Positions 141 through 45,317 of a stretch of 47,344 nucleotides of DNA are shown piece by piece. The stretch spans positions 1-47,344 of the forward strand of contig CAIWTU010000126.1 of the NCBI GenBank assembly GCA_903915655.1, written 5' to 3'. How positions within the stretch are numbered: position 1 is the first letter of the stretch; each line of letters begins with the position of its first letter. The DNA is from an uncultured Geobacter sp. (GTDB lineage Bacteria > Desulfobacterota > Desulfuromonadia > Geobacterales > Geobacteraceae). The position numbers and the translations under genes are program-made. The notes under the pieces are model-generated. The model was given only the letters and a program-made list of their open reading frames with translations, did no database searches and was not told where the DNA came from.

Positions 141-213
141 AGAAAAGATCCCCCCATCTGACCGGTTAACTGCTGGATAATGACGACGTCGCCTCACTCA
201 AAAGGAGAAGGAT

Positions 214-687: not shown

Positions 688-819
688 TCAGTTTTTATCC
701 GGGCTTACTTGGTTAAAGCAGCTTAATGGTGCAATCCGTTTCATCCTTTGCTCTTTTCCGTCAGATGGCGCAAGGCACGAACCTGGTCTCAGTTTCCTGT
801 CTACTTGGAGAAATAACAG

Positions 820-2160: not shown

Positions 2161-2163
2161 TGT

Positions 2164-2559: not shown

Positions 2560-2648
2560 TCGGTGACTTCTAAATACCTGCTTGGGAAATATTTTCTCCG
2601 ACAGGCTTGAAATGCTTTTCCTTCAGCAATGCTTCAAAGGGAGTGCTG

Positions 2649-3470: not shown

Positions 3471-3505
3471 CCGTTACCAGTTGCAATTTGAAAATGGCTC
3501 AAAAA

Positions 3506-3547
3506 CGCAGAAGAGGTGGGACAATCGAGCGTCCCACCTCTTCTGCG
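3506..3547. terminator. Convergent terminator hairpin between mqnA and the PxxKW gene
   Basis: A perfect 17-bp inverted repeat (arms 3506-3522 and 3531-3547, 8-base loop). On the minus strand the stem is followed by five T residues (complement of 3501-3505), so it fits a Rho-independent terminator for the minus-strand cysteine-rich gene. It could also stop transcription from mqnA. Confidence 0.85.
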
Positions 3548-3562
3548 TCATAGCCGGTCATC

Positions 3563-3853
3563 TTATTTCTTTTTACCACCGGAAGCCTTTTTCGAGGCTT
3601 TGAGAGGATTGACTTTAAGTTCTTCGCTTTTTATTTCTACTTTTACATGTGTAGCGAAGTTGCAAATACCGGATGTCCATTTTTTGATCGGTGCGGGGTA
3701 AGCGCTGCAGACCTTACCGATAGATCCTTCGACAATCCTATCACATCCTTCACAGTTCTCCGCGATTAGATGGCAGGAGCCCCCGCTGAAAACGCATCCC
3801 TGTTTTCCCCAGAAGGTGCACTCAGTGCCCGGGAGTACCGTTTGACATTGCAT
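3563..3853 (-). CDS. PxxKW family cysteine-rich protein
   Basis: A 96-aa protein with eight Cys in its first 64 residues (3, 12, 20, 27, 34, 37, 49, 64), including a CEGC pair. It has the segment PIKKW that matches the PxxKW name of a small family seen mainly in Deltaproteobacteria. The C-terminus is Lys-rich (NPLKASKKASGGKKK). The Cys pattern suggests metal or Fe-S binding, but no function is established to my knowledge. The start is ATG with a near-perfect GAGGAGG site. It is monocistronic, divergent from the downstream phosphohexomutase, and ends at a strong hairpin terminator. Confidence 0.85.
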   Translation of the reverse strand: MQCQTVLPGTECTFWGKQGCVFSGGSCHLIAENCEGCDRIVEGSIGKVCSAYPAPIKKWTSGICNFATHVKVEIKSEELKVNPLKASKKASGGKKK

Positions 3854-4036
3854 TTTTATTCCTCCTCTTGTTCCCCTAGTAATCTATTAATGTTTCACTC
3901 TACCAATTTTGAAAGAAAAATGTCAATAAGAAAAAAACTGTTGCAAAATCCCTTTCTCTTGACTCAGTGTAGACGATATATTAACCTGAAAGAGATTGCT
4001 ATCGGCGAATTGTTATAATTACAAAGGGGGACAGAC

Positions 4037-5455: not shown

Positions 5456-5472
5456 TCTCCATCCGGAAACTC
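5453..5472 (+). repeat. Copy of dispersed TTTCCATCCGGAAA repeat, at the phosphohexomutase stop
   Basis: TAGTCTCCATCCGGAAACTC matches the repeat core seen at 47205 with one change. The first TAG is the stop codon of the upstream gene. Confidence 0.7.
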
Positions 5473-5521
5473 AGTTCTGAAACAAGCGAGGTTCACAACA
5501 ACGATGACAGAAATACTGTCG

Positions 5522-5558
5522 TTGCTAAAATAGCAGGCTATGTAGTATACTGTACAGT
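5522..5558 (+). promoter_or_regulatory. Predicted nifU promoter with overlapping palindrome
   Basis: A -35-like TTGCTA (5522-5527) lies 18 bases from TATACT (5546-5551). A perfect 10-base palindrome ACTGTACAGT (5549-5558) overlaps the -10 and the likely start region, which is a typical position for a repressor. A weaker hairpin-like repeat (GACAG, 5 bases, CTGTC) lies just upstream of the -35. An Fe-S-responsive regulator would make sense for nifU-nifS, but the site does not match an IscR consensus I can confirm. Confidence 0.5.
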
Positions 5559-5585
5559 CAACCAATACTGTTTTTGGAGGATTTA

Positions 5586-6446
5586 ATGTGGGATTACACT
5601 GATAAAGTAAGAGAGCATTTCCTGAACCCGAGGAATGTTGGTGAGATAAAGGATGCAGATGCTGTTGGTGAGGTAGGTAGTCTGGCCTGTGGAGACGCCT
5701 TGAAGCTTTACCTGAAACTGGATGAAAAGAAGGAACGTATTCTGGACGCCAAATTCCAGACTTTCGGCTGTGCAAGCGCCATTGCTTCATCTTCGGCCCT
5801 TACGGAAATGGTCAAGGGTAAAACGCTGGAACAGGCGTTGCACATAACTAATCAGGAAATTGCAGATTTTTTGGGGGGGCTTCCCGAGGAAAAAATGCAC
5901 TGTTCCGTCATGGGGCAGGAGGCGCTGGAAGTCGCAATTGCCAAATATATGGGAACTGAAGTCAAGTCACGCCCCCACGACAAAGAGCATCTGGAAATGG
6001 AAGGGGCGGTTGTCTGCAAATGTTTCGGCATTACCGACCTCTTCTTGAAGAAGGTAATCGGCGCCAACAAGCTTAATACTGCGGAACAGGTGACTCATTT
6101 TACCAAGGCCGGTGGCGGTTGTGGTGGTTGTGTTCCCAAAATAAAAGAACTTATCGCCGAGGTAATTGGAGGGGAGCCGAAAGAAGAGTATAAAAGGCCG
6201 GAAAAGTTGACCAACCTCCGTAAGATGCAACTGATCCAGGACACTCTTGAGAAGGAGGTGCGCCCCCTTTTGTGGGCCGATGGCGGTGATCTCGAGCTGA
6301 TCGATATTGCCGGGGTTAAAGTACAGATTGCTTTCAGGAAGGCATGCGCCGGTTGCGTTTCATCCGGGCAGACTGCGAAATTTGTGGAACTGAAGCTGAG
6401 GGAATTTGTGGCTGACAATATCATTGTTGAGGAGGTTGAGGGATGA
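5586..6446 (+). CDS. nifU: Fe-S cluster assembly scaffold NifU
   Basis: Full three-domain NifU (286 aa), which receives sulfur from NifS and builds Fe-S clusters. The N-terminal IscU-like domain (about 1-125) has the three scaffold Cys at 35, 62 and 106. A central BFD-like [2Fe-2S] domain has Cys144, 146, 179 and 182 (VCKC and CGGC). The C-terminal Nfu domain (about 212-285) has CAGC at 254-257. ATG at 5586 follows GGAGG by about 5 bases; an in-frame TTG at 5574 is less likely. The last 4 bases overlap the start of nifS, so the two are translationally coupled. No nitrogenase genes are present, so a general Fe-S role is possible. Confidence 0.96.
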   Translation: MWDYTDKVREHFLNPRNVGEIKDADAVGEVGSLACGDALKLYLKLDEKKERILDAKFQTFGCASAIASSSALTEMVKGKTLEQALHITNQEIADFLGGLPEEKMHCSVMGQEALEVAIAKYMGTEVKSRPHDKEHLEMEGAVVCKCFGITDLFLKKVIGANKLNTAEQVTHFTKAGGGCGGCVPKIKELIAEVIGGEPKEEYKRPEKLTNLRKMQLIQDTLEKEVRPLLWADGGDLELIDIAGVKVQIAFRKACAGCVSSGQTAKFVELKLREFVADNIIVEEVEG

Positions 6447-7615
6447 AGGAAATCTACCTTGACAATAATGCAACTACAAAAGTCGATGAAGCTGTTTTCG
6501 AGGAAATGCGGCCCTATTTCTGCGAACTTTACGGCAATCCCAGCTCCATGCACTTTTTTGGTGGCCAGGTACAAAACAAGATCGACGAGGCGCGTAAAAG
6601 GGTTGCGAAACTGCTCGGCTCACTCCCTGAAGAGATCATCTTTACTTCTTGTGGGACGGAAAGTGATAACGCCGCCATCCGTTCTGCCCTGGAAGTCTTT
6701 CCGGAAAAACGGCATATTATAACAACGAGGGTCGAGCATCCTGCAGTATTAACTCTCTGTCGTAACCTTGCCAAACGCGGATACCGTGTAACGGAATTGT
6801 CAGTGGACGGGGAGGGGAGGCTCGACCTGGGGGAATTGAGAAAAGTTATTGATAATGATACCGCCATTGTCTCTGTCATGTACGCCAACAACGAGACCGG
6901 AGTGATTTTCCCTGTAGAGGAGGTCGGAGCAATAGTGAAGGAAAAGGGGGCGCTCTTCCATACCGATGCAGTGCAGGCGGTTGGCAAAATACCGATGGAT
7001 ATGTCTAAATCAACGATCGACATGCTGGCGCTCTCCGGACATAAACTGCATGCCCCCAAAGGGGTCGGCGCCATGTACCTGCGTAAAGGGGTCTCATTCA
7101 GACCATTTATGGTTGGAGGGCATCAGGAGCGAAGCCGTCGTTCAGGAACGGAAAACTCGGCTTCTATTATTGCGCTGGGGAAAGCCTGTGAACTTGCCGG
7201 ACAGTTCATGCTTGATGAAAATACTAGGGTCAAAGCGATGCGCGACCGTCTGGAAAAGGAGATTCTGGCCAGGATACCGAGCGTCAGGGTAAATGGTTGT
7301 CAGGCTGAAAGGCTTCCTAATACCTTATCGATTGCCTTCGAGTTTGTGGAGGGGGAAGGGATACTACTTCTTCTGAATGAAAAGGGTATCTGCGCTTCAT
7401 CCGGAAGCGCCTGTACTTCAGGGTCTCTTGAACCCTCCCATGTGCTCAGGGCAATGGGTGTTCCATTTACCTGCGCCCACGGCTCCATCCGGTTTTCCCT
7501 TTCACGTTTCAACACCGATGAAGAAATTGATCTGGTTATAAGGGAGCTGCCGCCGGTTATCACCCGTTTGAGGGAGATGTCTCCCTTTGGAAGGGATCTT
7601 CTGTCGAGCCACTGA
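6443..7615 (+). CDS. nifS: Cysteine desulfurase NifS
   Basis: PLP-dependent class V aminotransferase fold (390 aa) that takes sulfur from cysteine for transfer to NifU. It opens with IYLDNNATTKVDEAV. The PLP Lys is Lys201 in SGHKLHAPKGVGA, and the catalytic Cys is Cys324 in the short loop SSGSACTSG, as in group I (NifS/IscS) desulfurases. ATGA overlap with nifU shows coupling. The length is normal. The next small gene starts 25 bases downstream and may share the transcript. Confidence 0.96.
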   Translation: MKEIYLDNNATTKVDEAVFEEMRPYFCELYGNPSSMHFFGGQVQNKIDEARKRVAKLLGSLPEEIIFTSCGTESDNAAIRSALEVFPEKRHIITTRVEHPAVLTLCRNLAKRGYRVTELSVDGEGRLDLGELRKVIDNDTAIVSVMYANNETGVIFPVEEVGAIVKEKGALFHTDAVQAVGKIPMDMSKSTIDMLALSGHKLHAPKGVGAMYLRKGVSFRPFMVGGHQERSRRSGTENSASIIALGKACELAGQFMLDENTRVKAMRDRLEKEILARIPSVRVNGCQAERLPNTLSIAFEFVEGEGILLLLNEKGICASSGSACTSGSLEPSHVLRAMGVPFTCAHGSIRFSLSRFNTDEEIDLVIRELPPVITRLREMSPFGRDLLSSH

Positions 7616-7640
7616 TTAAAGTCGGGGAGTTTAAGAAATA

Positions 7641-7838
7641 GTGAAAAAGTCTGCGGCCGTCATACAACTGATTACTGTCCTGCTTGTTGTTGGATACGGA
7701 ACTTATAATCTTTTTACCGGCAATTTTGAACAGAGCATTTTGACCCTGCCTCTCCTGGTGGTTTACTATCTGTTTGTCGTTGTAAGACAAAAGAGGGTGC
7801 CATCAGATGGGGAGAAGGAGGGTCCGGTCGGCAGGTAA
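7641..7838 (+). CDS. Small hypothetical membrane protein
   Basis: A 65-aa protein with two predicted membrane helices (about 8-25 and 31-48), a short loop between, and a charged C-terminal tail. The start is GTG with GGGGAG about 12 bases upstream. It lies 25 bases after nifS in the same direction. I do not recognise the family. Position suggests co-transcription with nifUS but not a role. Confidence 0.55.
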   Translation: MKKSAAVIQLITVLLVVGYGTYNLFTGNFEQSILTLPLLVVYYLFVVVRQKRVPSDGEKEGPVGR

Positions 7839-7883
7839 AAGGGAAACCGGTCTCTTCACCGGAAATATTTCGGGCGACTCTGC

Positions 7884-8315
7884 TTATTGCGCGGCATCCC
7901 GAGGTTTTTTGCAGAGTTCTATGAAGGCTTCCAACAGATCGGTGATGGAAAGTATCCCTTCAAGATTTCCCTGATCATTGACCACACAAAGACCGTAGAG
8001 TTTCTTATCGTGCATCAGTTGCGCAGCTGTAACTATGTCTGCGTCGGGTGAGACTGTGTATGGGTTGGAAATCATCGACTCCGTTACAGGGATCTTGGAT
8101 AAAAGGTAATGGAGCTCCCAGGTGTCGAGCGAGGTAGCCTTACCGGGTGTCGATCTCTGGATTGAACCTTCGGTAAGAAGACCAATCAGCTTCTCCTTCC
8201 GCATAACCGGTAAATGCCGGATGTTTTCCTCTTTCATGATATGGATTGCCTCTATTAAAGAGGATTTGTCTTCAATGGTCAATGCCTTCTTCATCCAAGT
8301 TGAAACTTTATCCAT
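7884..8315 (-). CDS. CBS-domain pair protein at the end of the liv operon
   Basis: A 143-aa protein built from two CBS motifs (about 8-60 and 80-137), with IRHLPVM and SITDLLEA as typical CBS ends. CBS pairs bind adenine nucleotides and usually regulate another protein. ATG at 8315 has GGAGGTGG 8 bases upstream; a GTG at 8327 lies inside that site and is unlikely. It starts 18 bases after livF and is the last gene of the operon. A regulatory role in the transporter is inference from position. Confidence 0.85.
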   Translation of the reverse strand: MDKVSTWMKKALTIEDKSSLIEAIHIMKEENIRHLPVMRKEKLIGLLTEGSIQRSTPGKATSLDTWELHYLLSKIPVTESMISNPYTVSPDADIVTAAQLMHDKKLYGLCVVNDQGNLEGILSITDLLEAFIELCKKPRDAAQ

Positions 8316-8333
8316 GGGTACTACCACCTCCGT

Positions 8334-9038
8334 TTAAATTCCAAGAAAGGCCTTCTTTACATGTTCTTCATTCAGGAGAGCCTCACCTGTTCCGGCTAGA
8401 ACAACTCTGCCTGTTTCAAGAACATACCCGCGATGGGCGACACGCAACGACTGGTAAACGTTCTGTTCGACAAGGAGTATGGTTACCCCCTTACGGTTGA
8501 TCTCCGTGATTATATCGAAGATGTTTCTCACCAGAAGCGGGGCCAGTCCGAGTGATGGTTCGTCCAGCAGAAGCAGCCGAGGGTTGGCCATGAGCCCTCT
8601 GGCGATAGCGAGCATCTGTTGTTCGCCTCCCGACATGGTGCCTCCCAGCTGTTTTTCTCTCTCCTTGAGCCTCGGGAAGAGGCCGAAGACCCAGTCAATG
8701 TTTCTGGCCCGGTCTTTTTTCGCGCTCTTTATATACGACCCCATGCGCAAATTTTCCATTACAGTCAATTCTGAAAATATCTTTCTCCCTTCGGGAACCT
8801 GGACTATTCCTTTTTCCACAACTTCGTGTGACTCCAGTTGTGTCAAATCTGTTCCCTCAAAGGTGATCGAGCCGGAACCGGGCTTGAGCAGTCGGGAAAT
8901 ATTCTTTAAAGTAGTAGATTTTCCGGCGCCGTTACTGCCGACAACCGTCACTATCTCTCCTTCGTTTACCTCAAGATCTATCTCCCAAAGGACTTTCAGT
9001 CCGTCATAGCTGAAGCTCAGTTGTTCGATCTTAAGCAT
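8334..9038 (-). CDS. livF: Branched-chain amino acid ABC transporter ATP-binding protein LivF
   Basis: A 234-aa ABC ATPase of the LivF type on the cytoplasmic side of the Liv importer. Walker A is GSNGAGKST, the signature is MSGGEQQMLAIARGL, Walker B is LLLLDEPSLGLAP, and LLVEQNV contains the switch region. ATG at 9038 has GGAGAAAG just upstream and begins MLKIEQLSF; a longer frame to 9059 lacks this support. It overlaps the end of livG by 8 bases, as expected for a coupled pair. Confidence 0.93.
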   Translation of the reverse strand: MLKIEQLSFSYDGLKVLWEIDLEVNEGEIVTVVGSNGAGKSTTLKNISRLLKPGSGSITFEGTDLTQLESHEVVEKGIVQVPEGRKIFSELTVMENLRMGSYIKSAKKDRARNIDWVFGLFPRLKEREKQLGGTMSGGEQQMLAIARGLMANPRLLLLDEPSLGLAPLLVRNIFDIITEINRKGVTILLVEQNVYQSLRVAHRGYVLETGRVVLAGTGEALLNEEHVKKAFLGI

Positions 9039-9750
9039 GACTTTCTCCGAGATAGGCATCGATCACTTCCTGGTTGTCGGCAATCTCGGCAGGAGTCCCT
9101 TCGGCAAGCTTTTCTCCTGAATTGAGGACGACAATCCGGTCTGAAATTCTCATTATGGCTTTCATGTCATGCTCAATTACCATCTGGGTGAGGCCCCGTG
9201 ACTTCGTTTCAAGGATAAGTTGGATTATTTCTTCACTTTCGGAGGTATTCAACCCCCCCATGACTTCGTCCAGCAGAAGCAATTCCGGGTTTGTGGCGAG
9301 GATACGGGCAATCTCAAGTCTTTTTCTTTCACCAATCGGCAGTCCTCCGGCAGGCATGTTTGTCTTGTGTTCAATGTGTACAACCTTTAACTGTTCCATG
9401 GCAATTTCCCTGGCTATTTTAAGTGAATTAGTCCTGCAGAGCGCCCCGACCATAACATTGTCAAGAACGCTCATTTTTACCAGGGGCCGGACCTTCTGCC
9501 AGGTTCTCGCCATGCCGAGTCTGCAGATCTGGTGAGGCTGCAATCCGGTAATATTCTGCTTTTTAAAAAGGATCTGACCCTGAGATGGGGGGTAAAAGCC
9601 TGTTATACAATTAAAAAGTGTGGTCTTGCCGGCGCCATTCGGGCCAATAAGACCGATAATTTTACCTTCTTCCAGGGAAAATGAAATATCGGTGTTGGCT
9701 GCCAGTCCGCCGAAAAATTTGCTCACATTTTTCAGTTCAAGAATTGTCAT
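9031..9750 (-). CDS. livG: Branched-chain amino acid ABC transporter ATP-binding protein LivG
   Basis: A 239-aa ABC ATPase paired with LivF. Walker A is GPNGAGKTT, the signature-like region is GLPIGERKRLEIARIL, and Walker B is LLLLDEVMGGL. The signature is the variant usual for LivG rather than canonical LSGGQ. The C-terminal segment (NQEVIDAYLGE) is typical of this family. The start overlaps the stop of livM by 4 bases (ATGA), indicating translational coupling. Confidence 0.94.
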   Translation of the reverse strand: MTILELKNVSKFFGGLAANTDISFSLEEGKIIGLIGPNGAGKTTLFNCITGFYPPSQGQILFKKQNITGLQPHQICRLGMARTWQKVRPLVKMSVLDNVMVGALCRTNSLKIAREIAMEQLKVVHIEHKTNMPAGGLPIGERKRLEIARILATNPELLLLDEVMGGLNTSESEEIIQLILETKSRGLTQMVIEHDMKAIMRISDRIVVLNSGEKLAEGTPAEIADNQEVIDAYLGESHA

Positions 9751-10844
9751 GAGACCCCTCTACGGGTCTTTCCGTGTACAAATTTACTGATAAAGCCGAG
9801 GACACCTTCCGGCATGAAGAGGATAACCACCACTACCAGAATGCCATAGATAAGAACGTGTGAATGGGCAAGGTTATCCTTGAGGAATATCCCGATAGAG
9901 GATTCTTCACCCACCAGTCCGGCCTTGAAGAGGCCTTGAGCAATCATATTGCTCCGTAATGCCTCGGAAAGCGGGACCAGTATTATTGCACCGGCAACTG
10001 GCCCGAAGATGGTGCCAATGCCGCCGATTATACAGATCAGAACTATCTGGACCGACATGTCAAGAGAGAGGACACTTGTCGGATCTATAAATCCTATATA
10101 TACGGCATAGAAGCTGCCTGCCGTTGAGGTGAATGCCGCAGAAATGATCAAGGCTATATTCTTGTGCAGTGTGAGATTGATTCCGAGGGAATGGGCGGCG
10201 TCCTGGTCTTCCCGAATGGCCTGTAAACAGTAGCCGAGTTTGGAGTGCTGCACCAGCCAGGTCATTAAAATTGTCAGGAGGACGAGTATGAGGCCGGTGT
10301 AATAGAATGGCAACTTCGACGAAAAATCAGTTATCAGGATTGCGCCGAGTTTAAGGGGAGGAATATCGGTAGCCAGAATCCCCTCTGCACCGTTGGTGAA
10401 ACTTTTCACATTTAATGCGGTAAGCCTGATTATTTCAGCGGCAGCTATGGAAGCGAGAACAAAATATGGACCGCGGAGGCGAAAACAGATGGAGCCGATG
10501 GCCAGCGCGACTATTATGGCAACGGCAACTCCAACCCATACACCCAGCCAGGGAGGAACCTGGGCGTATTGCATGAGCATCATTGTCGTGTAGGCACCGG
10601 TGCCGAAATAGGCCGCATGACCGACCGAGTACTGGCCGGTGTACCCACCGAGTATATTCCAGCTTTCACCCAAGATAATACTGAGAAAGATCAAAATCAT
10701 CATGTGCAGGGTGTACGGACTATCCACAATCTGCGGAAAAGCGAAAAGCAAAGAGAGTAAGGCAACCGTTGCAAGGAGGTAAGTAACAGGCGGCGCCTTG
10801 GACTTTGGAGGCTTGGTGATAGCAGATTTTGCGGGACTGTTCAT
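9747..10844 (-). CDS. livM: Branched-chain amino acid ABC transporter permease LivM
   Basis: A 365-aa inner-membrane permease with about nine to ten hydrophobic segments. The N-terminal cytoplasmic stretch is Pro/Lys-rich. The ATPase-contact motif is AIREDQDAAHSLGIN and a Gly-rich segment IIGGIGTIFGPVAGA lies near residue 270. It forms the channel with LivH. It starts 15 bases after livH, with GGGAAG upstream of the ATG. Confidence 0.94.
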   Translation of the reverse strand: MNSPAKSAITKPPKSKAPPVTYLLATVALLSLLFAFPQIVDSPYTLHMMILIFLSIILGESWNILGGYTGQYSVGHAAYFGTGAYTTMMLMQYAQVPPWLGVWVGVAVAIIVALAIGSICFRLRGPYFVLASIAAAEIIRLTALNVKSFTNGAEGILATDIPPLKLGAILITDFSSKLPFYYTGLILVLLTILMTWLVQHSKLGYCLQAIREDQDAAHSLGINLTLHKNIALIISAAFTSTAGSFYAVYIGFIDPTSVLSLDMSVQIVLICIIGGIGTIFGPVAGAIILVPLSEALRSNMIAQGLFKAGLVGEESSIGIFLKDNLAHSHVLIYGILVVVVILFMPEGVLGFISKFVHGKTRRGVS

Positions 10845-37879: not shown

Positions 37880-37954
37880 GGGCGATTAGCTCAGCGGGAG
37901 AGCACTGCCTTCACACGGCAGGGGTCACTGGTTCGAACCCAGTATCGCCCACCA
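37880..37954 (+). tRNA. tRNA-Val (anticodon CAC)
   Basis: A full cloverleaf: acceptor GGGCGAT pairs with ATCGCCC, D-arm with AGCTCAGCGGGAGAGC, anticodon stem CTGCC/GGCAG with loop TTCACAC (anticodon CAC), and T-arm CTGGTTCGAACCCAG. CCA is encoded at 37952-37954. It stands alone and marks the change from conserved genes to the accessory region. Confidence 0.97.
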
Positions 37955-37990: not shown

Positions 37991-38170
37991 CTTGCTTTGC
38001 AATTAATTGCCATGCGGCAAATATGCGGCATGAGAAAATATTTTTTTATTTCTGCCGTAACGTCCAACCTTTACTTGAGCTAAGGCTGCTTGAGGCTCTC
38101 TTGGCAATCTCGGGAAGGTGGAAAGTGTGGAGTGTCTTCTGAAAATGCCCTGGCGGCCTGATTTGGTAGC

Positions 38171-38578
38171 TTAATCAATCTTATTGAATTGAGGGATTGG
38201 TGAAGCTGGCAAATTATTGTAACCGTATTGCGAAAGCCTTTTTCTGGCAATCTTTCTGCCTGCTTCGGTGAATAACTCACCCCATTGCGATTCTAAAATG
38301 AACGCCTCTACTGTTAGGTCGAGCCGTTTGCGCTCCCATAATTCAGTTTATCCTTCGGATACATTATTGCTGTGCAAGAGGATTTTGGCGGTTTCAAGCC
38401 CGCCATGATCGCATAACATCTGATGGAATCGCGTCGCCTTATACTTTACTTCTTCCCAGGCGCGGTGGTAAATGCCCATCATTGGAACAGGCAGCAGGAT
38501 AAAAGGCAGCACTTTTCTACGTTGACCGGCAAACTGAGTTGACGTGGGCAAGAAACGGCAATATTGCCGACAAGCCAT
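38171..38578 (-). pseudogene. Disrupted gene fragment (helical domain of unknown function)
   Basis: Minus-strand reading gives YHRAWEEVKYKATRFHQMLC, DHGGLETAKILLHSNNVSEG, then an in-frame TAA, then TELWERKRLDLTVEAFILES and KIARKRLSQYG to a stop at 38171. I recognise the string (HGGLETAK..LL...VS.GFT.LWE..RLDLTVEA) from larger hypothetical proteins of many bacteria. The frame is kept on both sides of the stop, so a point change probably broke it. It is also short at its N-terminus. The function of the family is unknown to me. Confidence 0.75.
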
Positions 38579-38596
38579 TGTCCTTCAGCTACATGA

Positions 38597-39589
38597 TTAC
38601 TGTTGGGACAGTTTCAGCTCATTAGGAGAGAGCCAGTTCTCAAATTTTTGCATACTTTCAAAAACGCTGCATTTGGAACAAGGGATATTATCCGTTTTTG
38701 GCACTAATCCCATCAACATTTTACGCGCATAGCGCATTTTATCATTATTCAGTTGTTCAGAAAAAATCCCTTCAAAAACATTTTCTGCGTACACCCCCCA
38801 AATATTCCGACTGCACCCCAACAGTTTGCCGTCCCAGTTTATTTGAGGACTGTGCCACATATGGTAGCACAGATGCCTCATATAATGGACTTTCTCGCGG
38901 CCAAGATACTCATTACGATCAGAATATCCGGTTAACTCTCGTACTTTTTCTGCCCGCTCATCTTTTACTTCGCCAGAAAGACAATCCAGTTTGTATTCAA
39001 TTTTCATCTTAAGCATCTCGGCCAACAGGGCAGCTTGTTCTATCTGGTTAATATTGTGCTCAAATATGATGAACTGGAATACAAGGTGTGGTGTCGAAGA
39101 CCCATATTTTTTTTTCAATTCATTTATGCGGCTGATATTCTTTATCACGTTCCTGAGTGATCCACCGACCCGATACTGCGCATAAACCGACTGAGTTACC
39201 CCATCAATTGCACATCGCACTCTGGATGTTCCAAAGCGCACAAGAGCGTCCAAGGCGTCATCTGAAGCGTGATTCAGGTTGGCGCCCTCATCAATTTCGG
39301 TAATAATTCCTTGCCTATGGGCAAATTCGAGAATCTCGGGAAGCTGAGGATTAAGGAAAACCTCTCCGAAGTTCCCAAGTTCTATACTTTTGATGGCTGG
39401 ATTCCTGATTAAAAAATCGCTGAATTTTTTAAAAGTCAGCTTCCCGTGACCTATTATATTGGTACTATTGCCTATAAGCTGACACATTGGGCAGTGGAGT
39501 TGACAGATAGAACATGCCTCGATCCTGACAGTGGACGGCAGTTTCTCCAGGTCGCCGGAAAAGATGCCATAGGTATTCTCTCTGGTCAT
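38597..39589 (-). CDS. Radical SAM/SPASM-like protein, second of a tandem pair in the lasso-type cluster
   Basis: A 330-aa radical SAM protein. The 4Fe-4S motif CX3CX2C is Cys29, 33 and 36 (CSICQLHCPMC). It continues IELGNFGEVFLNPQLPEIL, VRCAIDGVTQSVYAQYRVGG and RINELKKKYG. The C-terminal part has a SPASM-like pattern: LCYHMWHSPQINWDGKLLGC and CSKC, for an auxiliary cluster. It is clearly paralogous to the gene before it, sharing GxNLNxAxDxAL, VRxAxDG and YRVGGxLRxVIxNIxRINELK. Its ATG overlaps the previous stop (ATGA), so both are translationally coupled. The substrate may be the precursor peptide or a sugar on it; this is inference. Confidence 0.88.
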   Translation of the reverse strand: MTRENTYGIFSGDLEKLPSTVRIEACSICQLHCPMCQLIGNSTNIIGHGKLTFKKFSDFLIRNPAIKSIELGNFGEVFLNPQLPEILEFAHRQGIITEIDEGANLNHASDDALDALVRFGTSRVRCAIDGVTQSVYAQYRVGGSLRNVIKNISRINELKKKYGSSTPHLVFQFIIFEHNINQIEQAALLAEMLKMKIEYKLDCLSGEVKDERAEKVRELTGYSDRNEYLGREKVHYMRHLCYHMWHSPQINWDGKLLGCSRNIWGVYAENVFEGIFSEQLNNDKMRYARKMLMGLVPKTDNIPCSKCSVFESMQKFENWLSPNELKLSQQ

Positions 39590-40581
39590 ACTAGGTCCTG
39601 CTCAATCATCATGATCCTGTTGTTAATATCATCCTCAGTAATCCAATTTTTATAATGGCACATCGCCTGATAACAGTCACAGTGACAACAGGGTACATCT
39701 TTTCGGGGAGGCTTTTTCCCCATAAGCATTTCACGAGCATAGATCAATGCCTCGCTGTTAAGGGATTCGCGCAAATCATCCGTAAAAACATTGCCGGGAA
39801 AGTATCCGAAGTCGTTGTTACAAGTACAGCCGATTATCCTGCCATCCCATGTAATACGAGGACTGATCCAGGGCTGAGGACATAGCTGCCGAAAAAAATG
39901 ACATTTCGTTTTGTGAAGGTATTCAGCTCTATCGGCATAACCGGCGTATCTCCTTATTTTTTCACGTTCGACTGGCGACAGCTTTTCAGGAAATCGATTC
40001 AGTCTGATCTCGAATTTCATTTTGAGCATCTGTGCCAACAGGGCAGCCTGATCTATTTCATGAATATTGCAGGCCATCGGGATAAATTGAAAAATCAGCA
40101 GAGGAAAAGGCGAACAATATTTATGTTTCAGCTCATTAATACGTTTGATATTACGTATCACCTTGCGAAGGTCGCCTCCGACTCGGTACTTTTCGTACGT
40201 ACGCCTGGTTGCTCCATCCACAGCACAGCGGACGGCTTTGACACCAAAACGAACAACAGCTTCAAGCGCTTCATCTGTCGCATCGTTCAAGTTGGTGCCG
40301 TTAGCGATTGTAATTGCGATGCCACGTTCGGCGGCAAACTGAATCATTTCCGCCAGATTTTCATGAAGAAACAACTCGCCCCGCCCCCGTAGATACACTT
40401 TTCTGATCACGGGGTAACGGGTCAGAAAATCCCGGTAATCATTCAGAGCCATAAAACCCTTTTCCGGATGTTGATTGACCGATCTTGCCGGACATTTCGG
40501 GCAACTCAGATTGCATACCGACGTCGGTTCGAGGCCGACCGATTTGGGGAGAGGAACTGTCTGTTTTATTTCATTCGGCAT
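39586..40581 (-). CDS. Radical SAM/SPASM-like protein, first of a tandem pair in the lasso-type cluster
   Basis: A 331-aa radical SAM protein with Cys23, 27 and 30 in SVCNLSCPKC. It continues VYLRGRGELFLHENLAEMIQ and VRCAVDGATRRTYEKYRVGG. A SPASM-like C-terminus has LCPQPWISPRITWDGRIIGC and a Cys-rich PCCHCDCYQAMC, richer in Cys than in its paralogue. ATG at 40581 has GGAAAG 6 bases upstream and lies just after the glycosyltransferase stop; a frame to 40608 overlaps that gene and is unlikely. It is coupled by ATGA to the next radical SAM gene. Confidence 0.88.
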   Translation of the reverse strand: MPNEIKQTVPLPKSVGLEPTSVCNLSCPKCPARSVNQHPEKGFMALNDYRDFLTRYPVIRKVYLRGRGELFLHENLAEMIQFAAERGIAITIANGTNLNDATDEALEAVVRFGVKAVRCAVDGATRRTYEKYRVGGDLRKVIRNIKRINELKHKYCSPFPLLIFQFIPMACNIHEIDQAALLAQMLKMKFEIRLNRFPEKLSPVEREKIRRYAGYADRAEYLHKTKCHFFRQLCPQPWISPRITWDGRIIGCTCNNDFGYFPGNVFTDDLRESLNSEALIYAREMLMGKKPPRKDVPCCHCDCYQAMCHYKNWITEDDINNRIMMIEQDLV

Positions 40582-40583
40582 GA

Positions 40584-41780
40584 TTATCTTTCCAAGATTG
40601 CAATACATTTTCCGGCAATAATCCGGATTCGTTGAGAATTATCGGAGGCGGCATATTTCTGCGCCAGTGCGCCAATATTTTTATGTAAGGAGTTGTCATT
40701 AATCAGTCCCCTGATTTTGGATTCCATATCGGGAGTAGTGTCGAAAATTGAGACCATACTGCATAGATGCTGTGATGCAAGGCGATAGGCCAGTAACTGC
40801 TGCTCCAACTGCGAAGGGAAAAGGAGGATCGGCACGGCGTTAAGCAGTAACTGTGAAGTTGTGTTGTGGCCTGCTTCCGTTATGGCGAGACAGCAGTGGT
40901 TGCTGACATCTTCAAGACTGACCGGAGAGTCGGTGATCCTGATAGAGGGGCTGCTCAAAGCCTGTATGTCATCTTTTGAGAGACCCGGAATGACGGCATA
41001 AACTGGCAGTCCCAGTTTTCCAAGGGCGGCAAGAAGCGATAGAAGGTTCCGATTCTGAAATCCTATGTAGGCGAATATGTTGTCTCTCCCGGATGATGGC
41101 CAGTCGGCAAAAATGCCTGCAACCGATTCCGTTATCGGCCCGAAGTAAAAGGGCTCTTTCCGGTCAGAATAATGATCGAATTCCGGCCAGGTGCATAAAA
41201 ATAGTTCCGCACCGGTAAAAATATCTGCGGCTGAAGTCAGAAAAGAATGCCCGGAACTCTCCAGAGCGGGGTTTACAGCGGCAAGAAACTCTGCCTCTTT
41301 TTCGGCAAGGGTATGCCTTGGAATATTGAGCCAGGGGTGTAGTGACGGCATTGGGGTTGAAAGAGGGGGGATAGTGAAGCCGGTTCCCGTAACAGCACGC
41401 GGTATATTCATGCTCCTGGCGGCGATAAGCGCTGTCGGAGCATGTTCGGCAATTATCATGTCCGGTTTTGCAGAGAGAAACAGGGAGCGCCAGATCAAAA
41501 GCTGATTCTTCAGGTTGTCGCCATGACTGTAGCCGTTTTTCAGAAGATTCTGGCCATAGGACAGTGAAAGAACGGATGAAATCGGCGGAGTATTCTCTCT
41601 TTCAACACTGTGGCAGACAAAACCCTCTGCCGTAACAAGTTGCCAAGCTACAGAGTGCGTCTTACTGAACGCCCAGACAATGGCATGCCCTTGCACTCTG
41701 AGGATTCTGGCAAGGGGGAGAAGCCTCATGACATGGCCCAGATTGCCGCCAAGCTCCCAACAGATAAGTATTCGGCTCAT
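40584..41780 (-). CDS. GT-B fold glycosyltransferase (UGT/MGT-like)
   Basis: A 398-aa GT1-like enzyme. N-terminal acceptor domain opening RILICWELGGNLGHVMRLLP with the Gly-rich loop and His20-type base region. The C-terminal nucleotide-sugar domain has LAITEAGHNTTSQLLLNAVP and ILLFPSQLEQQLLAYRL, the family signature. It lies after the precursor gene and before the two radical SAM genes in the same direction, so glycosylation of the peptide product is the simplest idea. The ribosome binding site is weak, and the gene follows a hairpin in the mRNA. The sugar donor cannot be told. Confidence 0.87.
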   Translation of the reverse strand: MSRILICWELGGNLGHVMRLLPLARILRVQGHAIVWAFSKTHSVAWQLVTAEGFVCHSVERENTPPISSVLSLSYGQNLLKNGYSHGDNLKNQLLIWRSLFLSAKPDMIIAEHAPTALIAARSMNIPRAVTGTGFTIPPLSTPMPSLHPWLNIPRHTLAEKEAEFLAAVNPALESSGHSFLTSAADIFTGAELFLCTWPEFDHYSDRKEPFYFGPITESVAGIFADWPSSGRDNIFAYIGFQNRNLLSLLAALGKLGLPVYAVIPGLSKDDIQALSSPSIRITDSPVSLEDVSNHCCLAITEAGHNTTSQLLLNAVPILLFPSQLEQQLLAYRLASQHLCSMVSIFDTTPDMESKIRGLINDNSLHKNIGALAQKYAASDNSQRIRIIAGKCIAILER

Positions 41781-41820
41781 TTTGAAGTCTGCAGACTCTG
41801 TGGCTGCTCCGGTTGATTGT

Positions 41821-41862
41821 CCGCCAAAACTTCTTGGTTCAAGCTAACACGACTTTTGGCGG
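41821..41862 (-). promoter_or_regulatory. Intercistronic hairpin after the precursor peptide gene
   Basis: A perfect 9-bp inverted repeat, CCGCCAAAA / TTTTGGCGG, with a 24-base loop, in the 106-base gap between the precursor and the glycosyltransferase. A partial terminator or mRNA-stabilising stem here would raise precursor over enzyme levels, as in many peptide clusters. There is no strong T tract. Confidence 0.55.
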
Positions 41863-41886
41863 TTACTAAGACGGACTGTAAGGAGG

Positions 41887-42030
41887 CTATGAATACGCAT
41901 TGCCGTCTGCGCCAGTACCAGTGTTTCCTGACAGAGTAACGTCTTTGATGTCCCAGTCGTTTATAGTCGGTGTGGTCCACTGCTGTTTCCCCCCTGTTGC
42001 TTTTACAGCCTGCAGATTTTCGCTGTTCAT
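41887..42030 (-). CDS. Putative lasso-type precursor peptide
   Basis: A 47-aa peptide. The leader (1-33) has WTTPTINDWDI (residues 18-28), like the Y/WxxP motif bound by lasso leader-recognition (B1) proteins. Thr32 sits at -2 of the proposed cut, followed by Leu33. The proposed core (34-47) is SGNTGTGADGNAYS, with Asp at core position 9 for an isopeptide bond to Ser1. This matches paeninodin, which has Thr at -2, Ala1-Asp9 ring and a C-terminal Ser. An alternative cut before Gly35 would give an 8-residue ring to the same Asp. ATG at 42030 has GAGGAGG upstream; the frame extends to 42078 but lacks that support. The predicted tail is short (5 residues). Confidence 0.8.
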   Translation of the reverse strand: MNSENLQAVKATGGKQQWTTPTINDWDIKDVTLSGNTGTGADGNAYS

Positions 42031-42070
42031 ACGGCCTCCTCTTCTGGATGTTCTGTTATTTACAAGCTTT

Positions 42071-42358
42071 CTATGCAATGGATATAATCTGTCGTGACAG
42101 CAGCTTCACCAAAAAATCCAGTGTCTCTTTCTCCAACAACGAGCGCTCCGCTGAAAACTTACTTTCAAGAATATCGCAGAGAGCGCAAAAAGTCAGCGGC
42201 TGTTGAAGAGCGTCCCATATTTCTCCCCCGACTGGATTCAAGAGGTAATATTTGCCGGAATCCACGCTCATCATCATGATGTCGGAGTCCACCTCGCCGG
42301 TAAACATATCCTCATTTCTAGTTATAATAGTATCAAGAGTGAATTCCGAATACAGCAT
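42071..42358 (-). CDS. PqqD-like RiPP recognition element (lasso B1-type)
   Basis: A 95-aa small PqqD-fold protein that binds leader peptides. Typical pattern: MMMSVDSGKYYLLNPVGGEIWDALQQPLTF (about 28-57, read in two parts), followed by helices around CDILESKFSAERSLL and EKETLDFLVKLLS. ATG start. It ends 40 bases before the precursor start and begins 104 bases after the HPr-kinase-like gene, a gap that holds a short inverted repeat (GACAAT / ATTGTC, 42407-42431). Confidence 0.85.
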   Translation of the reverse strand: MLYSEFTLDTIITRNEDMFTGEVDSDIMMMSVDSGKYYLLNPVGGEIWDALQQPLTFCALCDILESKFSAERSLLEKETLDFLVKLLSRQIISIA

Positions 42359-42462
42359 AATCGCTCCTAAGAGTGGTGTATGTAATGCAACTTAACATAA
42401 GCTGCCCGACAATTCAATCACCTGATATTGTCCGGGAAAAATGGCATAGCAGGTTAGATGGA

Positions 42463-43377
42463 TTATCTCTCAAGCAGCGTTTCTATCATGTAAAAAAGTT
42501 CGTCCGGATGCGGTTTGGGGGACGAGAGCTCCAGCGAATAAATCGGCACTTTGTTCGCAATATTTATTATAGTATTGAAGTTGTTGGCTGTTCCACCCAT
42601 GCCTGAAAGAAAGTCACGGCAGAAAATATGCCGGTTTATCAGATGGAACGCTTCTCCTCCCCTCATCTGCTTTATGCCGGTTTTTGAAGAACCGTGCGAC
42701 GTAAGGATGAAAATCGCTGAAAGTGGCCTCGGATGCTCTTCGAAGAGATTCTGCATCAACAATCCATCTTTTTCCCAGCTGGGGAGTGAATCTATACCGT
42801 CTGTCCAGTCATCAGGCCATAGAGCGATTGAATCTTTATGGAGCTTCAACTCCGGAGTCCCTGGCAGAACCAGCAGCTTGTGGTCTTTACTATCTATGGC
42901 CGTGGTGTTGTCATCAAGCAGTCTGTAGCCTTTGTGGAGAAAAGCTGCGGCAAGAGTAGACTTCCCCATGCCGGAGTCAGCGCAAAAAACTATGCAAGAT
43001 CCCTGCTGATTGGCTACTGAGGCGGCATGAAGAGGCAAAACTCCCCTTTGGTGAAGAAGAGCCCCCAGACCCCAGCCAAGAAGCAGCATCCGAATATCTT
43101 CGATTTTGCTCTCAACCAACGGCTCAACAAGGATATGTGATCCGCTGGAAACAAGTATCCGTGCAATAGTATCAGTTATTATAAGGAGTTGCTCTTTGCC
43201 GGCTTCGAATTTGAACCCTGTCCGTTTGTCGGGATCGGTTATTTCAGGTACCGTTCCGGTTGTAATTGTGACATCCACTTTTCGTCTGCCATCATCTCTG
43301 CGAAGTTGAGGGCACTCAATAGCGGATGAGATGGTAAGGCCAAAGGCTCTGTAGAGGAATTTCTTTTTTGTTGTCAC
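42463..43377 (-). CDS. HPr kinase-like protein of lasso-type clusters
   Basis: A 304-aa protein with the HprK P-loop CADSGMGKSTLAAAF (Lys139), preceded by GVLPLHAASV (His117) and followed by a Walker B-like LLDDNT (Asp155-156). Such kinases in lasso clusters phosphorylate the C-terminal Ser of the precursor, and the precursor here ends in Ser. GTG start overlaps the TGA of the cyclase gene by 4 bases. The C-terminal region (SGMGGTANNFNTIINIANKV) is unlike HPr kinase proper, as in other cluster-associated members. Confidence 0.88.
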   Translation of the reverse strand: MTTKKKFLYRAFGLTISSAIECPQLRRDDGRRKVDVTITTGTVPEITDPDKRTGFKFEAGKEQLLIITDTIARILVSSGSHILVEPLVESKIEDIRMLLLGWGLGALLHQRGVLPLHAASVANQQGSCIVFCADSGMGKSTLAAAFLHKGYRLLDDNTTAIDSKDHKLLVLPGTPELKLHKDSIALWPDDWTDGIDSLPSWEKDGLLMQNLFEEHPRPLSAIFILTSHGSSKTGIKQMRGGEAFHLINRHIFCRDFLSGMGGTANNFNTIINIANKVPIYSLELSSPKPHPDELFYMIETLLER

Positions 43378-45317
43378 AAGCGGCTACCGTTGAGAGCATC
43401 CTCGATAAAACAGCCGCACATGATCCCTCGGAGAAGAACCGTTGTTGCCTTATTTGCACTTTCGGCTGTTACGCCGATCTCCAGAGCCTTCCAGACATTG
43501 CGCATCATGTTCAGGTCAAGAATTGCTGAAATTTCAGGAGTATTGCTGAATCTATCAAGGACGGCTCTCATCTCTTCTCTATGATGCAGTAATCTAAGGG
43601 CAACATCCGCCCCCTGTTTTCCCCGGACGGTGCTCCACTGCACTTCCGGAGGAAGAATCCCTTCCATCCCCCTTCTTATAAGCATTCTATCTCCACCTTT
43701 CCAGTTATGCTGAATCTCCGGAACAGAAAGGCAATATTCTATAAGTGGGATGTCCGCAGTCGGATCCCTTACCTCCATGTTGAAGGCTGAGCCGAAGAGA
43801 TGCCAGATCGGTCCTGCCATTGCTCCGTTTCTCTGAAGCGTAAGAAAACGTTCTTCAGCAGGAGAGATGAAATCGCCTGAACCGGGGGCGTTGCGAATTG
43901 ATTTGAGTGCCTCTCTCAAGCCGAATCTTCTGGCAAAATCCGGACTTATTGCAGAATAGCCAGACCAGGAGTCTTTCCTCCCCCTCCCTATAATACAACC
44001 TGCCCGGCTCCGAAGGGGACGGAGCAGAGGTTTGACAACTGCCGAGGTTATGGCAGAAATCCAGGATACTCCATGGCACTGTTTCCATTCTGCTATCGCC
44101 TTCATCCCTTCGTCCCATCGTCCCGAAGCAAACAGAAATAAAATCCGATCCCTCCCGCCACTCCACGAAACCCCGCCATTACCCAGTTGACCGGTAAGCA
44201 TAACACGAACTCCACAATCTTGTGCCTGATCTAGCAAGGCCATGATCCAGTGCATATTGGCAGCAGCATGCATCGGAGCGTGAGCGATTACGGCTATTCG
44301 CTCAATGGCCTTGATTGGCGCCACATTAGAAGCGTTAATCTTGTGGTGTTTTATGTTTTTGAAACGGGAAGATACGGTTGAAGCAAGTCCCCATTCATCC
44401 GCCAGGGCTCCATTGAGCAAATATTGGCAAGCAAACTCAGGAACTGAAGTGAAAGCATGGAGAGTTTCTCCGCTACGTCCCAGAATCTGAGCAGCAAGCG
44501 CAGTGACAGCCCCTGAATCAAGCCCCGCACTCAGGGTGCTGCCGATCGCGTATCTTGATCGAAGACGACTCTTAACCGCCGATTTGAAGCTGTCTAAAAA
44601 ACCGGCTAGATAATTATCTTCTGAACTGACCGAGGCAGCGGTCAAGTCATTCATATTCCAATAGCGAAGGTTATTTAACCCTTTTGTAGAAACACTAAGT
44701 TTGCAACCTGCTGAAAGTCGTTTTATGCCTGCCCAGCAGGTGTCATCTGCATCTCCAAGCGGAGAGATCGTCAAATATGCAGCAATCTTGGTCTCGTTGA
44801 TTTTGCGCTCTATCTGTTTTAGGGCGAACAGACCTTCCGGATCACTGGAAAAGGCAAAGAAGGGTGGACGGTAGTAGTAGTAAAGTCCTGTGTTTCCGAG
44901 ATGATCTCTTGCGATAAAAAGGGTTTTTTCCTTTAAATTACAGGCTGCAAAGGACCAGTCGCCATAAAGATGCCGGGGTGCACTCTCTCCCCATTTGCAG
45001 TACGCCTTAAGGACAAGATTTGTGTCAGGGGTTGAGTTTCGGTCAGGACACGGGATACCAAAAATGCCGCAAAGTTCATCTCTGTTATCCAGCCTTGCAG
45101 CCGAGGTAAACAGCAACTGTTCCGTTTTCAGAGGCATTGATTCGTGCAGAGACTCCGGAGTTATTGAAAGATTGGCAAATCCCATAAAAACCGAATTGAT
45201 ATTAAGTGAATAAAGGCCGTCAGCCCCCCATCTCCTCATTGACTCGCTCATATACGCCAGATCATCCGGGGGGAGGGTACCTCCATCAAAATTGATGCAT
45301 CCAAAAATAGCGCTCAA
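43374..45317 (-). CDS. Asparagine-synthetase-like lasso cyclase (C protein)
   Basis: A 647-aa AsnB-like protein. The N-terminal glutaminase-like domain begins MSAIFGCINFDGG and lacks the Cys2 needed for amidotransferase activity, as in lasso cyclases. The C-terminal ATP-pyrophosphatase domain has the PP-loop STLSAGLDSGAV (Ser263-Ser268). It would adenylate the Asp side chain and close the ring. TTG start, with GAAAGG about 11 bases upstream. It is the first gene of the cluster and overlaps the kinase gene (GTGA). Confidence 0.88.
   Translation of the reverse strand: MSAIFGCINFDGGTLPPDDLAYMSESMRRWGADGLYSLNINSVFMGFANLSITPESLHESMPLKTEQLLFTSAARLDNRDELCGIFGIPCPDRNSTPDTNLVLKAYCKWGESAPRHLYGDWSFAACNLKEKTLFIARDHLGNTGLYYYYRPPFFAFSSDPEGLFALKQIERKINETKIAAYLTISPLGDADDTCWAGIKRLSAGCKLSVSTKGLNNLRYWNMNDLTAASVSSEDNYLAGFLDSFKSAVKSRLRSRYAIGSTLSAGLDSGAVTALAAQILGRSGETLHAFTSVPEFACQYLLNGALADEWGLASTVSSRFKNIKHHKINASNVAPIKAIERIAVIAHAPMHAAANMHWIMALLDQAQDCGVRVMLTGQLGNGGVSWSGGRDRILFLFASGRWDEGMKAIAEWKQCHGVSWISAITSAVVKPLLRPLRSRAGCIIGRGRKDSWSGYSAISPDFARRFGLREALKSIRNAPGSGDFISPAEERFLTLQRNGAMAGPIWHLFGSAFNMEVRDPTADIPLIEYCLSVPEIQHNWKGGDRMLIRRGMEGILPPEVQWSTVRGKQGADVALRLLHHREEMRAVLDRFSNTPEISAILDLNMMRNVWKALEIGVTAESANKATTVLLRGIMCGCFIEDALNGSRL

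Follow-up and report, generated by a model that had tools for sequence, protein, structure and literature searches.

A putative lasso-type peptide cluster with a glycosyltransferase and two radical SAM genes in an uncultured Geobacter sp.

We present here a lasso-type RiPP cluster from contig CAIWTU010000126.1 of an uncultured Geobacter sp. (47,344 nucleotides; the window), in which a glycosyltransferase (GT) and two radical SAM genes accompany those for a cyclase, a kinase, an RRE and a precursor. On balance, we judge these genes to be a real, rare variant of lasso-type clusters, with a tailoring cassette that is dedicated and inherited. We found no earlier description of radical SAM tailoring in the lasso class. 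In the literature searched, no lasso cluster was described as containing radical SAM enzymes, and the accessible part of a 2026 review (PMC13352647) does not use the word "radical" at all.

Gene content and the lasso-type genes

The window carries seven minus-strand ORFs between 38597 and 45317 (Table 1), all of them intact, as the initial annotation had called them. They form a tight operon-like run. The cyclase and kinase ORFs overlap by 4 nt, as do those of radical SAM b and radical SAM a, and the gap between the GT and radical SAM b is 2 nt if the latter begins at its likely start, 40581 (a longer ORF begins at 40608). The seven genes include neither a B2 peptidase nor a transporter, and none of the seven proteins has a Pfam nucleotidyltransferase match.

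Table 1. Genes of the cluster, in window coordinates
Feature	Position	Strand	Basis
AsnB-like lasso macrolactam cyclase (C protein), 647 aa	43374..45317	-	NF033535, PF00733, PF13537
HprK-like kinase, 304 aa	42463..43377	-	TIGR04352 and weak PF07475; His, Lys, Asp-Asp kept
PqqD-like RRE (B1), putative leader-binding protein, 95 aa	42071..42358	-	PF05402; NF033536 lasso_PqqD_Bac
Lasso-type precursor peptide (predicted), 47 aa	41887..42030	-	AGGAGG 5' of ATG; alignment of 8 precursors
GT-B glycosyltransferase, GT1 type (predicted), 398 aa	40584..41780	-	AF2 model, PDB folds, weak TIGR01426
Radical SAM protein b	39586..40581	-	PF04055, PF13186; CxxxCxxC and four conserved Cys
Radical SAM protein a, 330 aa	38597..39589	-	CxxxCxxC and four further conserved Cys; AF2 model

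In NCBIfam the cyclase matches the lasso cyclase model NF033535 best (E 2.4e-106, 356.8 bits), ahead of the asparagine synthase model (E 5.5e-46). This points to a lasso-type cyclase, though the score does not reach the curated cut-off of 525, which is exceeded in 3 of the 247 genomes of the phylum sample. The protein is 46% identical both to a lasso-type cyclase on contig C97 of the same genome and to the cyclase of G324. The PqqD-like protein exceeds the PF05402 cut-off (49.1 bits), its best NCBIfam model is NF033536 (E 8e-18, 64.4 bits; cut-off 80), and it is predicted to be the RRE of a lasso cluster. The kinase scores below the cut-offs of Hpr_kinase_C (PF07475; 19.4 bits versus 33.3) and TIGR04352 (E 2e-13). 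Its His, Lys and Asp-Asp residues are conserved in 8/8 aligned kinases (seven cassette loci and contig C87, with the L036 kinase left out); the motif is named for HprK-like kinases in the accessible part of PMC9266682, and its placing on the present sequences is our own assignment. With the C-terminal Ser of the precursor, these residues suggest a paeninodin-type pairing, in which the kinase would be expected to phosphorylate that Ser. Gene content and the conserved kinase residues thus support the paeninodin-type set (cyclase, kinase, leader binder and Ser-ending precursor) proposed at the outset. The cyclase, PqqD-like protein and kinase all lie under their NCBIfam cut-offs, which counts against the explanation that we favor.

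The precursor has no Pfam match. AGGAGG lies immediately 5' of its ATG, it has homologues elsewhere, and all eight sequences end in Ser, which upholds the original call of a Ser-ending precursor. The proposed core is SGNTGTGADGNAYS; Thr-Leu precedes SGNTGTGAD, so that Thr stands at -2, the putative ring acceptor is Asp9 and the C terminus is Tyr-Ser, an arrangement consistent with a lasso precursor (leader Thr at -2, Asp/Glu at core positions 7-9). Eight precursors from seven loci, window included, share a leader W-x-x-P and Thr, the Asp acceptor and the terminal Tyr-Ser. M1, W, P, T, D, Y and S are invariant among them; no core residue besides the Asp and the final Tyr-Ser is conserved throughout. 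Counted from the -2 Thr, the Asp falls at D9 in four precursors and D8 in one (5/8), and it would be position 11 in the three Chloroflexi precursors (L039, L040). To our knowledge, natural lasso peptides have rings of 7-9 residues. Tyr-Ser ends 8/8 cassette precursors but 0/4 Ser-ending candidates taken from lasso clusters that lack these radical SAM genes. Two features of the precursors also count against our favored explanation: a tail of five residues leaves little length for threading, and the Asp of the three Chloroflexi precursors would stand at position 11.

The genome has one PF13471 (B2) match, on contig C87 outside the window, which probably belongs to its second lasso cluster; the B2 gene of that cluster lies at L013:5869-6354. 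B2 was found in six of the seven other cassette genomes searched, and in four of these seven it lies at the cassette locus or on a contig overlapping it (L068 is the same contig as L036, and L064 shares a 121-bp end with L038). These overlaps rule out B2 in trans as a general rule, and the lack of B2 in the window cluster, set against these four genomes, is a further point against the favored explanation.

Two products other than a threaded lasso would also suit a 14-residue core whose tail is five residues long, in a cluster without B2: an unthreaded macrolactam of small size, or a linear peptide bearing phosphate and sugar, akin to the linear polyphosphorylated peptides (LPPs). LPPs depend on a kinase, RRE and NTP-transferase of the same kind. 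According to the accessible part of PMC13381572, LPP clusters have the kinase and RRE in common with paeninodin clusters. The LPP clusters described there, however, are without a cyclase, whereas a lasso-type cyclase is present at 7/9 loci of the present family, and 4/8 precursors have Asp9 and Thr(-2) in register; we therefore hold such a product to be unlikely.

The glycosyltransferase and the radical SAM pair

The GT has no Pfam match and lies below the cut-off of TIGR01426 (E 8e-11). Its AF2 model (pLDDT 82) has VinC, the kitacinnamycin GT and a macrolide GT as best PDB folds, and the fold models support the GT-B call made initially and suggest GT1 type.

Radical SAM b exceeds the Pfam cut-offs of PF04055 (33.5 bits) and PF13186 (24.4 bits; ORF 39586-40608). 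Radical SAM a, 45% identical to it, is below both (PF04055, 20.6 versus 29.5; SPASM, 19 versus 21.5). The top NCBIfam match of both, the tungsten-cofactor maturase TIGR04317, was rejected at 72 and 83.8 bits versus a cut-off of 380. C29-C33-C36 and C241, C259, C304 and C307 are invariant in 14/14 aligned radical SAM rows. Two-cluster SPASM RiPP maturases (SuiB, anSME type) have a motif of seven or more C-terminal Cys, and BtrN has CxxxCxxC and four Cys holding one auxiliary cluster. Because only four Cys lie beyond CxxxCxxC, the window proteins probably have one auxiliary cluster, a BtrN-like pattern in which the shared fold is not proof of shared function. Of the tandem radical SAM/SPASM-like pair first described, the radical SAM assignment therefore stands, and a full two-cluster SPASM domain probably does not.

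The AF2 model of radical SAM a (pLDDT 87) supports a radical SAM fold, with PDB fold matches to BlsE (Z 19.2), SuiB, SkfB and MoaA; BtrN follows at Z 15.7, and PqqE and anSME, like SuiB and SkfB, are also close. As SuiB and SkfB score less than 1 Z from BlsE, fold cannot separate a sugar from a peptide substrate. The closest solved-structure sequence at E <= 0.01 is 7tol alone, a weak match (E 4.3e-4). The sugar and cyclitol enzymes BlsE, DesII and BtrN thus resemble the window proteins in fold, and BtrN also in its four-Cys auxiliary cluster, but at just 13-18% identity, in fold alignments only.

The radical SAM proteins of cassette loci (14 rows, including L036_a and L037_b from incomplete loci) form a single clade with support 100/99 versus 14 other family members. 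A Pfam glycosyltransferase lies no more than about 3 kb from at least five of the 13 non-lasso relatives; the scanned neighbors of L042, L044, L046, L048 and L051 gave none. Because of these neighborhoods, and because BlsE and DesII are among the best folds, we lean slightly toward radical SAM enzymes that act on a sugar or sugar-phosphate conjugate. The pair may instead act directly on the peptide core, guided by the RRE (for example by oxidation, cross-linking or epimerization at Tyr or ring residues), with the GT decorating the phosphoserine independently, in a manner comparable to PsmN in pseudomycoidin. The close folds of PqqE, SuiB, SkfB and anSME, the RRE in the cluster and the invariant penultimate Tyr (8/8 precursors) speak for this course. 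Against it are the four-Cys pattern, the restriction of core invariance to Asp and Tyr-Ser, the relatives near glycosyltransferases, and the 22 non-cassette loci, which have no tblastn match (E <= 1e-5) to RRE or precursor references. We give it a substantial chance, though one below even.

Recurrence and distribution of the cassette

Kinase, RRE, precursor, GT and radical SAM genes occur together at six other loci (L029, L034, L035, L038, L039 and L040), in Desulfobacterales, Chloroflexi and one genome of the window's phylum. The cyclase is also present at five of them, and the contig of L040 ends. Since the set recurs in other genomes, it is more than a chance association. The initial annotation had named a lack of conservation of the GT and radical SAM genes with cyclase, kinase and precursor as evidence against its proposal, and the recurrence runs the other way.

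Nine loci, window included, were compared. Every gene class is present at six; the lasso-type cyclase is found at these full sets and at L036, and the GT at 7/9. L036 has no GT or precursor that we could find, L037 has radical SAM genes alone, and no GT was found anywhere in the genomes of these two; such incomplete loci speak against our favored explanation. The GT adjoins the precursor at 7/7 loci having both, and the order precursor-GT-radical SAM is kept at 6/7, with a cupin gene separating the GT from the radical SAM genes at L040. The exception is L035, whose radical SAM pair lies on the other strand and follows two genes of weak GT2 similarity. This layout, together with the glycosyltransferases near non-lasso members (at least 5/13), would suit GT and radical SAM genes that make a surface glycan and merely neighbor the lasso cluster. 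The constant GT-precursor adjacency, the order kept at all loci but one, the window junctions of 2 and -4 nt and the distinct cassette clade make that very improbable.

The cassette is sporadic and rare. None of nine other lasso-cyclase loci of the phylum matched the radical SAM proteins of the window or its GT in tblastn (0/9, E <= 1e-3), and 8/9 have an HprK-like gene. A radical SAM match at 1e-30 was found in 9 of 395 phylum genomes; G000 and G324 have the cassette, and the contigs of G147 (L030) and of G151, G429 and G215 (L031-L033) have no lasso genes in their annotation. Among 147 genomes searched as relatives, 10 had radical SAM matches at 1e-20, G000 included. Outside G000 these were only 25-30% identical, and broad conservation in the window's relatives was rejected. 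The phylum sample of G531 gave a radical SAM match in 1/400 genomes and its class sample a GT match in 1/249, G531 itself counted in each; the order sample of G527 gave 2/242, G527 itself and G1122 (one match). Gene-by-gene annotation spans 20 (L034-L053) of 29 radical SAM loci. The 22 non-cassette loci (L041-L062) had no kinase, RRE, precursor, cassette GT or B2 match in tblastn at 1e-5, and L057 had one weak cyclase-2-like match (22%, 2.8e-8).

Proposed pathway and relation to known systems

Gene content, gene order, conservation, catalytic motifs and predicted folds are read from the sequence; the reactions, their order, the modification site and threading are what we infer. In the pathway that we consider the most probable, at somewhat better than even chances, the RRE would bind the W-x-x-P leader and the HprK-like kinase would phosphorylate the C-terminal Ser. 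The second lasso cluster of the genome would provide, in trans, a B2 peptidase that cuts after Thr-Leu. Ring closure by the cyclase between Ser1 and Asp9 would yield a macrolactam of 14 residues with the five-residue tail GNAYS. The calculated [M+H]+ is 1253.503 for this macrolactam, 1333.469 when it bears one phosphate and 1495.522 when it bears phosphate and one hexose. The GT1-type enzyme would attach a sugar, while further radical chemistry would fall to the two radical SAM enzymes, both probably around the conserved C-terminal Tyr-Ser. A more specific version, which we offer tentatively and consider doubtful, places the radical SAM step after glycosylation. The pair would oxidize or rearrange the sugar, or the sugar-phosphate-Tyr-Ser unit, of a phosphorylated, GT1-sugared lasso-type peptide, whose modified end would plug a very short lasso, with an 11-residue ring in some Chloroflexi.

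The cluster resembles the paeninodin type (PadeK, ThcoK) in its cyclase, discrete RRE, HprK-like kinase with His, Lys and Asp-Asp, and Ser-ending precursor. It differs in adding a GT1-type GT and two radical SAM proteins, in a precursor that ends in Tyr-Ser, and in a seven-gene set that lacks both B2 and a transporter. Pseudomycoidin (PsmK, PsmN) is a phosphorylated, hexosylated lasso peptide, and the window peptide is likewise predicted to carry phosphate and sugar at its C-terminal end. PsmN, if a PF14907 member, would have a counterpart in the nucleotidyltransferase genes of the related loci L029 (PF14907) and L034 (50% identical to that of L029). The window cluster, in contrast, has a GT1-type GT and radical SAM genes, and no PsmN-like nucleotidyltransferase was found in it. 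The SynChlorMet cassette contains ScmC, ScmD and ScmE, whose models (TIGR04248/04249/04250) are weakly matched by the kinase, PqqD-like protein and radical SAM b at 19.2 versus 100, 22.1 versus 125 and 34.2 versus 400 bits. With scores so far under the cut-offs, it was rejected as the home system. A PqqD-like gene is present at two ScmE loci (L088, L089), which showed neither a lasso cyclase nor a relative of the window GT, and the term SynChlorMet is absent from the literature searched.

The tailoring steps known for lasso peptides are growing in number. With a cassette common to at least two phyla, radical chemistry could be studied on a lasso-type peptide that is phosphorylated and glycosylated, using defined enzymes and cores that are short and simple, and the seven precursor-bearing loci and their C-terminal Tyr-Ser signature may be used for genome mining.

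Gene cluster and related loci

The initial annotation had described seven co-directional genes, and these were confirmed as intact, consecutive minus-strand ORFs (45317 to 38597) encoding, 5′ to 3′, a cyclase, an HprK-like kinase, a PqqD-like leader-binding (RRE) protein, a 47-aa precursor, a glycosyltransferase, and radical SAM proteins b and a. Their intergenic distances (−4, 104, 40, 106, 2, and −4 nt, in gene order) are, judged from the sequence, an operon pattern, and AGGAGG precedes the precursor's ATG. The top NCBIfam model for the cyclase is lasso cyclase (E = 2.4e-106), yet below that model's curated cut-off; the PqqD protein passes the Pfam cut-off, with lasso_PqqD_Bac as top NCBIfam model, below the NCBIfam cut-off. 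A Pfam search gave no match for the glycosyltransferase, the predicted model of which (pLDDT 82) resembles GT1 antibiotic glycosyltransferases, e.g., VinC. Just downstream of the cluster lies tRNA-Val (cac), which with the adjoining stretch is a possible insertion site; the sole ORF tested there had no Pfam match.

A radical SAM b search of 147 relatives (threshold, 1e-20) gave matches in 10, including the window's own genome (G000), all but G000 at 25 to 30% identity; a second search, of 395 phylum genomes, gave 9 at 1e-30, G000 counted. In the same phylum, locus L029 (genome G324) shares the window's order of kinase, RRE, precursor, glycosyltransferase, and two radical SAM genes; its cyclase is convergent, and close by are the leader peptidase B2 (PF13471), a PF14907 nucleotidyltransferase, and an ABC transporter-like gene. 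A pattern scan of a genome collection of 84,980 species, using four radical SAM proteins as queries, produced 29 loci. All gene classes were found at L034 (Desulfobacteraceae), L035 (Desulfobacterales), and L038 and L039 (both Chloroflexi), and all except the cyclase at L040 (Chloroflexi), where the contig stops. L036 (Desulfosarcina) has the cyclase, kinase, and two radical SAM genes, the second truncated by the contig end, and overlaps L068, with a PqqD-like gene and B2; the glycosyltransferase and precursor were looked for there and neither was found. L037 (Brocadiaceae), a 4.4-kb contig, has two radical SAM genes only, and the remaining 22 loci had no match to the kinase, RRE, precursor, cassette glycosyltransferase, or B2 references. 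Conservation of the radical SAM and glycosyltransferase genes with the cyclase, kinase, and precursor was thus borne out, the full set being present at six of nine loci, window and L029 counted. The radical SAM pair is on the opposite strand in L035; one such gene is present at L038, and one is visible at L040 ahead of the contig end. Cupin-like genes (Pfam tested in L029 only) occur at four of the nine cassette loci and are absent from the window's seven genes. In wider genome samples, the cassette is rare.

Coordinates of features in the window, cassette loci, and other loci
Feature	Locus	Position	Strand
Radical SAM b	window	39586-40581	−
Radical SAM a	window	38597-39589	−
tRNA-Val (cac)	window	37880-37954	+
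Stretch adjoining tRNA-Val	window	38080-38580	
ORF tested	window	38348-38578	
Precursor, Asp at 11	L039	7135-7287	
Precursor, Asp at 11	L039	7650-7802	
Precursor, Asp at 11	L040	7762-7911	
Cupin-like	L029	7270-8046	
Cupin-like	L035	11130-11870	
Cupin-like	L036	9085-9840	
Cupin-like	L040	9227-9922	
Second lasso cluster, part	L019 (C97)	1-9886	
Second lasso cluster, part	L013 (C87)	4757-9925	
Radical SAM tandem triple	L048	8022-10933	
Radical SAM tandem pair	L051	9884-12087	
PqqD-like/B2 row	L072 (G529:C273)	1092-3309	

Precursors and control loci

The core of the window precursor is proposed to be SGNTGTGADGNAYS, which places Thr at −2 and Asp at position 9. M1, W18, P21, T32, D42, and the terminal Tyr-Ser are common to all eight aligned precursors from seven loci (window, L029, L034, L035, L038, L039 [two], and L040). 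BLAST against the window or L029 precursor recovered those of L035, L038, and L040 and one of the L039 pair; position and YS ending served to choose the L034 precursor and the other L039 copy, and these two are therefore not independent evidence for that ending. If Thr is −2, Asp is at core position 9 in four precursors, 8 in one (L038), and 11 in three from Chloroflexi. Natural lasso rings have 7 to 9 residues, and a ten-residue ring was obtained in vitro, according to PMC8498205; under the −2 Thr rule, position 11 would fall outside the natural range.

Controls were the nine best lasso-cyclase matches in a 247-genome phylum search, G000 and G324 excluded; they came from seven genomes, three on contigs of <5 kb. 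An HprK-like gene is present at eight of the nine, and none matched the window radical SAM proteins or glycosyltransferase (tblastn, E ≤ 1e-3), a result that, for radical SAM genes, covers homologues of these proteins. Control locus L119 carries GT2-like genes, of a different type from the window glycosyltransferase. Ser-ending candidates away from these radical SAM genes end in GS (C97), DS (C87), and GS and PS (two at L123); the Tyr-Ser ending is therefore found in 8/8 cassette precursors versus 0/4 of these, a contrast that was put to a Fisher test but for which no P value is claimed because the rows are related and were chosen by eye or pattern. The candidates of L115 and L117 have a C-terminal residue other than Ser.

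Radical SAM proteins

CxxxCxxC and four more cysteines (C241, C259, C304, and C307 in protein a) are kept in all 14 aligned rows, the latter four predicting one auxiliary cluster; BtrN cysteines have similar spacing. The predicted model of protein a (pLDDT 87) matched BlsE (Z 19.2), SuiB and SkfB (18.5), MoaA (17.7), DesII (17.3), anSME (17.2), PqqE (17.1), and BtrN (15.7), a set in which sugar enzymes and peptide maturases stand beside other types. In a tree that also holds 14 other family members, the 14 cassette-locus rows, including those from incomplete loci L036 and L037, form a single clade (support, 100/99). Within the tree, the two L029 copies are sisters and the L035 copies cluster with those of L036, which suggests more than one origin for the tandem pairs. 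Among the 13 non-lasso relatives, with neighbours scanned at all but L049 and L053, at least 5 (L041, L043, L045, L047, and L052) lie within ~3 kb of a Pfam glycosyltransferase gene, and selected neighbours at L042, L044, L046, L048, L050 (DUF4422), and L051 include none; sugar is thus only slightly favoured over peptide as the substrate of the radical SAM chemistry. A tandem triple (L048) and a tandem pair (L051, adjoining UxuA-like and short-chain dehydrogenase genes) of the related family occur in non-lasso settings.

Leader peptidase and standing of the cluster

The single PF13471 match in the window's genome is on contig C87, which probably adjoins C97, since their ends match a repeat copy less four bases. 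Joined, they would probably make a second lasso cluster that comprises two cyclase-like genes, RRE genes, a TylF-like methyltransferase-PqqD fusion, GT2, an HprK-like kinase, a sulfotransferase, and B2; its product is possibly a sulfated lasso peptide. Directly upstream are sulfate-activation-like genes (named by eye). Genome G353 (L123) has a resembling cluster, its sulfotransferase 57% identical.

Seven other cassette genomes, that of L034 not among them, were searched for B2, and six have it. In G324, G527, and G528 (L036) it lies at the cassette locus itself; in G530 (L038) its contig and the cassette contig have a 121-bp end in common; in G529 (L037) and G531 (L039) the respective contigs do not overlap. 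The search of G532 (L040) found none. B2 thus usually lies close by, and for the window's genome a supply in trans is plausible, though unusual, with L039 as best parallel. Pseudomycoidin is reportedly synthesized without leader and leader peptidase. A different cluster, L072 of a Brocadiaceae genome, has in a row genes for a PqqD-like protein, B2, a distantly related radical SAM-like protein (24% identity), and a GT2-like protein.

Both HPr kinase and sulfotransferase genes had previously been described from lasso clusters (PMC8498205 among the sources). The literature searched yielded no account of radical SAM enzymes in a lasso cluster; it takes in passages of PMC9266682, PMC13352647, PMC13381572, PMC8498205, PMC7470986, and PMC4289311, with most subscription papers outside it; within these bounds the combination is apparently undescribed. 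All chemical steps of the pathway are inferred. The gene combination is real and conserved, and the window cluster is a variant within paeninodin/pseudomycoidin-type lasso clusters and not a separate kind.
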